Origin: Oscillospiraceae bacterium | GTDB taxonomy: Bacteria > Bacillota > Clostridia > Oscillospirales > CAG-272 | Assembly (NCBI GenBank): GCA_015063855.1 | Contig: SVTI01000010.1 | Coordinates: 1 to 41,172 of the forward strand | DNA: 41,172 nucleotides | Direction of reading: 5' to 3' | Shown here: positions 35,593 through 39,738 of the stretch, one piece after another | How positions within the stretch are numbered: the stretch's first letter is position 1 | How the letters are laid out: each line of letters begins with the position of its first letter | Made by a program: the position numbers and the translations under genes | The notes under the pieces: model-generated | Seen by the model: only the letters and a program-made list of their open reading frames with translations | The model's database searches: none | What the model was told of the DNA's origin: nothing

Positions 35593-36819
35593 ATGAGACT
35601 TGCGATTATAGGAGATCTTCAATACTGGAAGGCGGAGGTTGAAAATCTCGGCTTTAAGATGAAGCAGATAAAGAAATTCAAACCCGGTTTTTCCTTCGTT
35701 ATGGGGGACGTTGGCGGATCACGGATGAGAAGCGAGGAGGGACTCCTTGAAACTAAGGAATACGTTTCGATGGTTGGCTGTCCTTTTCATCTGATCTACG
35801 GAAATCATGATGTTGAATACTGGCTTGAGAATGTGAATAAATATGATCCCGAGGCTACCTACCGTAAGGTCTTTTCGGAGTGCACGTATAAATCTTATGT
35901 TTTTAACGGTGTACTTGTAGTGAGCCTTTCGATAGAGCGTCAGCCTGTCGAGGACTTTATGACCCCCTATACCGTATACGTTTCAGACGAGCAGTATGAG
36001 TGGGCAAGAAAAGTCATAGAGGACAACCGCGATAAGCCCTGTATCATTATTGCTCATGCTCCCGTAGCAGGCTCGGGGCTTCGCTGTGACAGACCTATGC
36101 ACAATGCGGCACTTGATACCTATCTCGACCAGACCTTCAAAGCGGAACGATGGGTGGAGCTGCTCCATGATAATCCGCAGATAAGGGCATGGGTCAGCGC
36201 TCATTTTCACATGGGACACGATTATGATACTGCCATTACCGAAAGGGCTGGTGTAGTTCATATCTCCTGCGGAGTTATGACCTGCTGTACAAGGGATGAG
36301 AGAGCACATACAAGGATTCTTGATATAACTGATGATAAGAGGCTTTTGGTATATACCCTCGATCATAACAATGATGCTGAATTGATTTATGATGCAGAGA
36401 TCGATCTTACCGGCAAAAAAGAAAGCAAGGGCAAAATATCAAGACATGGGAAACATGAAATACTTATCGGTACGGATGATTCTCCCACAAAGGCTTGGTA
36501 TGATGAGTTACATGACAGATATTTCGTAGCTACAGAGAAGGGGATGCTTTGGGAATACTCGGAGAAGCTCTCCGATTTCTGCGGTGCATTGTCATACGAG
36601 AGGACGGTCGATGAATTATACGTTGACGGTGACCGTCTTATTATGAAATATCCGGACAAAGCCGCTATTTCGGTAGATCTTTATTCCCGTCACCGTTGGC
36701 AATACAAGGAGAGTCTCAAGCAGGATATAAATTCTGAGACAGATATTTGCGGTATAGCTCTTCCGAGGATCGGATTTACTATCCGAGATTCAAAAGAGGG
36801 CGTATATATACTGTTCTAA
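35593..36819 (+). CDS. Calcineurin-like metallophosphoesterase with C-terminal extension
   Basis: MRLAIIGDLQYWKAE, FVMGDVGGS, LIYGNHDVEYW, IIIAHAPVAG, VSAHFHMGHDYD. Confidence 0.8.
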   Translation: MRLAIIGDLQYWKAEVENLGFKMKQIKKFKPGFSFVMGDVGGSRMRSEEGLLETKEYVSMVGCPFHLIYGNHDVEYWLENVNKYDPEATYRKVFSECTYKSYVFNGVLVVSLSIERQPVEDFMTPYTVYVSDEQYEWARKVIEDNRDKPCIIIAHAPVAGSGLRCDRPMHNAALDTYLDQTFKAERWVELLHDNPQIRAWVSAHFHMGHDYDTAITERAGVVHISCGVMTCCTRDERAHTRILDITDDKRLLVYTLDHNNDAELIYDAEIDLTGKKESKGKISRHGKHEILIGTDDSPTKAWYDELHDRYFVATEKGMLWEYSEKLSDFCGALSYERTVDELYVDGDRLIMKYPDKAAISVDLYSRHRWQYKESLKQDINSETDICGIALPRIGFTIRDSKEGVYILF

Positions 36820-36825
36820 GAGAAA

Positions 36826-36860
36826 AAACACACCGATTTTGTAAATCGGTGTGTTTTAAT
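36826..36860. terminator. Bidirectional terminator
   Basis: aacacaccgattt-tgta-aatcggtgtgtttt. Confidence 0.85.
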
Positions 36861-36875
36861 TACTTAGAATTTATC

Positions 36876-37640
36876 TTAGAATGATTCGCAATCCTCGCAA
36901 ACTGCATATTCGAAATCGCTAAGCTCCTTACCGCAACGAACGCAGGTCTCGCTTTCCCAACAAGCATCGCAGGAGAACCATTCATCGCCAACGAGAAGCT
37001 CTTCGCAATAGTAGCAATATTCGGGCTCGCCGTCCTCTTCCTCATATGCTTCGGCATCCTCGTCTAAACAATCCTTACAGTATCAGAAGTCATCCTCTTC
37101 AAGAGCAGCGCCGCAGTCAAGACAAGTGTCTTCTTCCTCTTCTCCCTCTACGTCCCATGCCTCTTCACAGTCAGCACAGTAGTATTCTTCACCGTCGCTG
37201 AGCTTTTCGCCGCAATCGATACAGAGATTGTTATCTAAAGCTTCCTCGTATGCTACGTCGTCTGCAAGACAGTCCTCGCAAAGAATGATCTCATCCTTAT
37301 CAAGCTCTTCCATACAGTAGAAGCACTCTGTCATGGATTCACAATCCTCGCAAATTACAGCATCCTCGTCACAGTCCTCGTCACAGAAGTAGCAGATACC
37401 CTCTTCGGAATAATCCTCAATAGTGTAGATAAGGAGCTCCTTATGACTCTTGTCGGAATTATCCACTACATCATCCTTGTCATCGGCATCTTCTGCGTCA
37501 TCTGCATCGTCCTTATCGTCTTTATCTTCTTTTTCTTCTTCCTTTTCATCATCCTTGTCATTTGTAGAGATGGTTACGTTACATGCAACTAAGGAGAAGC
37601 AAAGAAGCATAGCTAACAATAAAACTAAAAACTTTTTCAT
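36876..37640 (-). pseudogene. Exported lipoprotein with six tandem zinc-ribbon modules, interrupted by in-frame TGA at 37083-37085 (nonsense mutation, base error or recoding)
   Basis: Lipobox LVAC-N; acidic linker; CxxC pairs CYFC/CEDC, CFYC/CEDC, CIDC/CADC, CLDC/[TGA]/CKDC, CYYC/CDAC, CVRC/CEDC; frame open from 37082 down to TAA at 36876-36878. Confidence 0.7.
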
Positions 37641-37785
37641 TTCAAAAAAGCCTCCTAAAAATATAATTTAAACCATTATAACATAATATTATACTTTTAT
37701 CAATAGTTTTTTGAGTTTTTGTCGGGAACAGTCGCAAATTGTTGCGCCTGCGTTAATAAAAAAACGGTGAAATGTTTAAAAATAC

Positions 37786-37848: not shown

Positions 37849-39738
37849 ATGAAAAAATTATTATCTTTCGTGCTCGTATTAACTATGCTTTTCTGTATGA
37901 TTCCTGCCTTTACCTCATCCGCTGCCTATATTCAGGATGAGATTCCCGGATTCATCGGAACAGGATACAAATGGGACAGACTTTGTGAGTTTAATATCGA
38001 TTTCAACGGTGGTTATTACAATGCAAATTCTGGAGCAACTGCAGGTACTGTGCAAGCAAACGCTCTCGGTATTGCAAACGGGTTCAGCGGAGGTATCCTC
38101 ACTATCAGAGTTTACCATCCTGCAAATCAGGTGCTTGATGCCACCTTTAATACCTATATCGGTGTTATCTATTATAACGGCTTAGGTGTATCTCCCACCT
38201 TCTATTATCTCGGTGACCTTATGACCGTTATTTACAATTCAATTGAGAAGGATAATGCAGAGCTTACTGCCATGACTCTTGAGGGCCTTGCGGACTTTAC
38301 TCCCAACGAATTTGCAAGCGGTATTATTGCGGCAGGCATCCTTACCGGTGCTACTTATACCTATACTGCTAAGTGGACCGAGGCTGCTCCCAAGCAGTAC
38401 ACTCTTACCTTTGATACCAACGGCGGTGCAATGCCCGCAGGCTACAGCTCCACCTATACTTTCATGGACGATCAGAAGCTTGCTGACGTTATCGGCGGTT
38501 TCCCCGTACCTACCAAGTCCGGCTGCGTGTTTAAGGGATGGAAGAGAGGTACATCCTCCGATCTTTGGTCTGACGGTTGGGGAACTCAGCCCTACACATG
38601 GGGTCAGGATGTTACAGTTACCGCTCAGTGGGAAGAAGAGGTAGTAGCTCCCAGCGAATGTGAAAACCACAGCTTTGCAAACGGTGTATGTACGGTATGC
38701 GGCGCTGCTATGCAGACATCCTACACGGTAGGCGATTATACCTATACCTACGCTACTGCAAATAAGCTCGGCGCACCCGCAGGCTGGAACGTAGTTGTAA
38801 CCGATACAACCAAGACCTCCTACGGTGCTATCAACGGTAATCTCCACGGTATCCCCGTAACCATTCTTTCCAAGACCTACGCAGGTTGTTCTAAAATGAC
38901 ATCCGCTCCCGCTATTCCTACAACGGTTAAGGTTCTTTACAATACCTATAAGGGAACAGCACTCACCTCCACTCCTTCAATTCCCGCAAGCGTAGTTACC
39001 GTTTACGGTGCATTCAAGGATTGTAAATCTCTTACTACAGTTACAAATATTCCCGCAAACGTTACAGATATGAGCTTTGCATTTACAAACTGTGCTAAGC
39101 TTGCAAGCGTTCCCGCACTTCCCGCAGGTGTAACCTCTCTCTGGCGTGCATTTGCAAACTGTACTTCTCTTAAGAGTGCTCCCGTAATTCCTGTAAGCGT
39201 TAACAACATGGTTGAAGCATTTGACGGATGCTCTGCTCTCGCAGGAAAGGTTAATCTTGCAACCAACAATAACAAGAGAGCTTACAGAGGAACTGCTGTA
39301 ACAGAGGTTGAGATCTCCGCTGACGTTACACATTTCGCTCTCAGCTGCTTCAAGACCAATACTGCAATTCAGAACGTTTATTACGGCGGTGCCGCAACAG
39401 CTTGGAACGATATCACCTACGAAGGCTATAATACCAAGATCATTAACGCACACGTAAGAACCGACGTTAAGGCTGCCGAGCCCACCGTTGAGGTTAAGAA
39501 CGGCAGAACCTATATCTGCGATCTCGATACCGATAATCTCCGTGACGTATTTATCGGTAAGGGCAGAGCTGTGGCATACCGTGGTGTTGTAATGAATAAG
39601 GTCGTTGGCTTCACCGCTGCAAGGATCAACGGTGTGAGCGTTTACACCTACGGTGCTAAGATCGGCGCAGGTAACTATACTCTTTGTGCAAGATATAACG
39701 ATGGTACAACAAGACTTTACTATTTCACAGTTGCATAA
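37849..39738 (+). CDS. Secreted BspA-like leucine-rich repeat protein with InlB B-repeat-like domains
   Basis: Signal peptide; TLTFDTNGGAMPAGYSST...PTKSGCVFKGWKRG; five 22-23-aa LRR units (SLTTVTNIPANVTDMSFAFTNCA, KLASVPALPAGVTSLWRAFANCT...). Confidence 0.82.
   Translation: MKKLLSFVLVLTMLFCMIPAFTSSAAYIQDEIPGFIGTGYKWDRLCEFNIDFNGGYYNANSGATAGTVQANALGIANGFSGGILTIRVYHPANQVLDATFNTYIGVIYYNGLGVSPTFYYLGDLMTVIYNSIEKDNAELTAMTLEGLADFTPNEFASGIIAAGILTGATYTYTAKWTEAAPKQYTLTFDTNGGAMPAGYSSTYTFMDDQKLADVIGGFPVPTKSGCVFKGWKRGTSSDLWSDGWGTQPYTWGQDVTVTAQWEEEVVAPSECENHSFANGVCTVCGAAMQTSYTVGDYTYTYATANKLGAPAGWNVVVTDTTKTSYGAINGNLHGIPVTILSKTYAGCSKMTSAPAIPTTVKVLYNTYKGTALTSTPSIPASVVTVYGAFKDCKSLTTVTNIPANVTDMSFAFTNCAKLASVPALPAGVTSLWRAFANCTSLKSAPVIPVSVNNMVEAFDGCSALAGKVNLATNNNKRAYRGTAVTEVEISADVTHFALSCFKTNTAIQNVYYGGAATAWNDITYEGYNTKIINAHVRTDVKAAEPTVEVKNGRTYICDLDTDNLRDVFIGKGRAVAYRGVVMNKVVGFTAARINGVSVYTYGAKIGAGNYTLCARYNDGTTRLYYFTVA

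Follow-up and report, generated by a model that had tools for sequence, protein, structure and literature searches.

On the minus strand of the window, by which the whole analysed stretch of 41,172 nucleotides is meant, a 254-codon gene encoding a ribbon-containing lipoprotein is probably interrupted by a recent nonsense mutation, as judged from a base taken from a draft consensus. The in-frame TGA codon separates a 185-aa open reading frame from a further 68 codons in the same frame, and these codons are former or current coding DNA. In this article, the structure of the interrupted frame, its relatives, the decoding of TGA in the source genome and the competing explanations for the stop are discussed.

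Structure of the interrupted frame

The frame, which runs from 37640 to 36876 on the minus strand, translates as MKKFLV...CGAALEEDDF(stop)YCKDC...CEDCESF(stop). The pre-stop open reading frame (37086..37640, minus strand; 185 aa) comprises a lipoprotein signal peptide with a lipobox-like LVAC motif, a long acidic linker between this signal peptide and the series of CxxC...CxxC ribbons, ribbons 1 to 3, and the first knuckle of ribbon 4; its product would contain seven knuckles, the last of which is unpaired. The TGA (37083..37085, minus strand), followed by a T, is positioned two residues before the third Cys of ribbon 4 and separates the two CxxC knuckles of that ribbon. The post-stop segment (36879..37082, minus strand) supplies the second knuckle of ribbon 4 together with ribbons 5 and 6, and is closed by a TAA (36876..36878, minus strand), which presumably served as the original stop of a 254-codon gene whose full protein would be a six-ribbon lipoprotein. 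The original prediction, which had described an in-frame TGA inside a zinc ribbon followed by 68 codons, was accurate in both coordinates and content, and the ribbon alignment likewise places the TGA opposite the Tyr of ribbon 3, as had been proposed.

Candidate expression signals surround this frame. An AGGAGG ribosome-binding site (37651..37656, minus strand), read from the sequence, precedes the ATG at 37640, and a promoter-like TTGATA-17-TATAAT element (37675..37703, minus strand), which is a consensus match only, agrees at 11 of 12 positions and has a TG before its second hexamer. An intrinsic terminator with a 15-bp stem and a T tail (36825..36857, minus strand; fold z = -7.0) is located 18 nt past the TAA, and since it follows the TAA and not the TGA, the transcript presumably spans the whole frame.

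The source assembly is a fragmented draft of 120 contigs, 84% complete, and is the one genome of its species covered by the analysis. A metallophosphoesterase-like gene (35593-36819, plus strand), which in the source genome is followed by the interrupted lipoprotein gene, is present in all five other genomes of the genus; examination of its flanks in these five genomes revealed no ortholog of the interrupted gene beside it. In two of them, G001 and G005 (loci L048 and L049), it directly precedes genes whose translations read as phage terminase small and large subunits. The divergent neighbour of the interrupted gene (37849-39738, plus strand) encodes a 629-aa secreted protein, which, from reading by eye, we take to consist of InlB-type B-repeats and BspA-like leucine-rich repeats.

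Coding character of the post-stop segment

When translated, the 68 codons of the post-stop segment align with the C-terminus of L004, an intact 237-aa paralog on contig C1 (52% identity across 66 positions, E=8e-19), and less strongly with that of a second paralog (L006, contig C117). Across 62 aligned codons, the differences from L004 at codon positions 1, 2 and 3 number 19, 17 and 38, respectively, which is the same pattern as that displayed by the pre-stop part against its paralogs. An open frame of 68 codons has a chance of about 0.02 given the base composition and is by itself weak evidence; the coding score of the segment together with its paralog homology lies far beyond chance. The earlier claim of a genuine coding frame past the TGA therefore holds on the basis of this homology and coding score. 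The 19-nt near-repeats quoted in its favour are indeed present (minus strand, 36882-36900 and 37337-37355), but they are weak proof of coding because they represent a common ribbon motif that is repeated.

No frameshift and no further stop occurs within the 68 codons, and decay is not yet visible. ATG, GTG and TTG are all absent from the segment, which makes reinitiation past the TGA unlikely. A scan for interrupted genes over 171 kb of the source genome identified eleven stops that are flanked, before and after, by coding-like sequence in a single frame and are not covered by any better-scoring frame. In 10 of the 11, an ATG occurs among the first ten codons of the downstream segment, which corresponds to a neighbouring gene, leaving the TGA at 37083-37085 as the only one followed by a coding-like segment without a start codon. 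Two features of a nonsense-interrupted gene, homologous coding sequence on both sides of the stop in one frame and relatives with a sense codon at the corresponding position, are both found here.

The ribbon-lipoprotein family

A profile search of 295 family genomes recovered three members in the source genome, three in G005 and none elsewhere. The five intact relatives contain 4, 4, 5, 6 and 6 ribbons (8, 8, 10, 12 and 12 knuckles), and all of them terminate 2-5 residues past a complete ribbon. At the position equivalent to the stop, family ribbons mostly have V, I, F, Y, A or W, that is, hydrophobic or aromatic residues, with Trp occurring in one ribbon of L004; no stop is found at this position in the two source-genome paralogs or in the G005 members. 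A TAA inside two of the G005 profile matches was rejected as a candidate, being in each case the normal end of a gene passed by an over-extended match.

On contig C49 of G005, two members with 4 and 6 ribbons (L002, 65670-66221, and L074, 70931-71548) lie about 5 kb apart, a pair that illustrates a small family gaining and losing ribbons. In some ribbons of L006 (G000, C117), L074 (G005, C49) and L005 (G005, C4), the second knuckle is HxxC instead of CxxC, its first Cys being replaced by His, a substitution consistent with metal binding. Another locus, L075, shares just the signal peptide and the start of the linker with the interrupted lipoprotein, and two contig scans for relatives yielded no useful one.

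Among curated models, DZR_2 (PF18912) matches the readthrough protein with 29 bits (cut-off, 27 bits), and no NCBIfam model covering the ribbon lipoprotein exceeds its own cut-off; no family spanning the whole protein was found in Pfam or NCBIfam. The repeated CxxC-x(10-12)-CxxC knuckles resemble those of DZR_2, whereas in the present proteins a lipoprotein signal and an acidic linker precede four to six ribbon repeats. From these sequence features, the gene product is probably a surface-anchored, acidic, zinc-binding lipoprotein, zinc binding being deduced solely from the arrangement of Cys residues. The predicted structure (mean pLDDT 69.5, pTM 0.40) was of too low a quality to support a fold search, and no conclusion rests on it.

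Decoding of TGA in the source genome

TGA terminates 36 of the 140 long open reading frames in the same 171 kb, in line with the earlier view that it is a normal stop here; release factor RF2 (prfB) is present above its cut-off, and no tRNA with the anticodon UCA was found among the tRNAs scanned. Reassignment of TGA across the whole code is thereby excluded, and its suppression by a dedicated tRNA was rejected as far as the scanned tRNAs show.

Insertion of selenocysteine is suggested by the location of the TGA in a Cys-rich domain, the one respect in which the gene resembles those of bacterial selenoproteins. The genes named in the original prediction as pertinent to this possibility give no support to it: SelA is absent from the source genome (84% complete) and from five genomes of the genus, and tRNA-Sec is represented by matches below the gathering score only, the best of which is an ordinary tRNA-Ser(UGA). 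SelB and SelD reach 172.9 and 27.3 bits against cut-offs of 242 and 125, respectively, and control genomes that remain below the cut-offs likewise give such sub-threshold matches. Folding of the 60 nt from the TGA gives -4.5 kcal/mol, no better than shuffled sequences (z = +1.1), and no bSECIS-like hairpin was found just past the TGA (z = +1.1 and +0.6), which bears out the earlier impression that a convincing element is lacking. Moreover, unlike in bacterial selenoproteins, the homologs have hydrophobic residues (V, Y, F, W, I, A) and not Cys at this position. Selenocysteine at 37083-37085 is therefore effectively excluded, within the limits set by the 84% completeness of the genome.

In Escherichia coli, TGA is the leakiest stop, misread mostly as Trp, and a T after the stop raises the accuracy of termination (PMC11126739). 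In the present gene, special decoding of the TGA has no support, and ordinary low-level leakage is possible.

Origin of the in-frame stop

The favoured explanation is that a recent single-base nonsense substitution created the TGA in ribbon 4 of a lineage-specific gene for a six-ribbon secreted lipoprotein. Translation would be expected to end at this codon, releasing a 185-aa lipoprotein in which three ribbons are complete and a fourth is halved, and the 68 downstream codons would still be intact since the mutation is young. We infer a genuine, recent mutation and a truncated product that is damaged; a product ending in the middle of a ribbon looks damaged because the five intact relatives hold complete ribbons only. 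The gene thereby resembles interrupted coding sequences (ICDS) and nonsense pseudogenes of bacteria, in which a single in-frame stop is flanked by a coding signature on both sides (PMC1852416, PMC7918605). Compared with published ICDS, there is nothing distinctive about it, apart from the base here being a draft consensus call. In published surveys, mutation and sequencing error are each represented among the interrupted genes of bacteria (PMC1852416, PMC7918605), and in the published genome of Mycobacterium smegmatis errors account for a significant share of them (PMC1852416). This precedent, the draft state of the assembly with its 120 contigs, and the lone substitution as the sole defect in 254 codons give some weight to the view that the TGA arose as an error of consensus or assembly, the gene itself being intact in the organism, an explanation that ranks second and is a serious but clearly lesser possibility. 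A young mutation and an error would each leave a lone substitution in a frame without other damage. Such errors are not frequent here, given that no other gene interrupted in this way was found in 171 kb, and a real mutation is favoured on this ground. Substitution errors are also rarer than indels in most assemblies, which counts against an error.

Two further explanations were weighed. Partial readthrough of the TGA by near-cognate tRNA-Trp, which would yield a small amount of full-length lipoprotein in addition to the truncated form, is unlikely. The intact downstream frame with its coding signature, the leakiness of TGA towards Trp and the L004 ribbon with Trp at that place would suit it, as would in-frame stops with dN/dS below 1, which are reported as widespread in bacteria (PMC7918605). 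The coding signature, however, is older than the stop and is no evidence of use at present, the T after the TGA would favour termination by the E. coli precedent, and neither a downstream structure nor a paralog with a stop at the equivalent place accompanies it. It is improbable that the TGA has been retained as a leaky stop, yielding surface metal-binding lipoproteins with three and six ribbons in a changing ratio. Functional shortening, whereby a protein of about three ribbons would work, accords with the flexible ribbon number of the intact members, but an unpaired knuckle where all of those end past a complete ribbon, and a terminator placed past the second stop, make it very improbable. 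Of the options originally offered, mutation and error are retained, whole-code reassignment is excluded, selenocysteine is effectively excluded, and readthrough is unlikely, having no supporting feature.

Implications

The finding is an ordinary one, a gene most likely interrupted by a recent nonsense mutation. For annotation, an interrupted gene of 254 codons should be recorded in place of a complete 185-aa protein, and its downstream frame is not to be taken as a signal of recoding. As it stands, the case matters little, concerning one interrupted copy in a small, lineage-specific family of lipoproteins.
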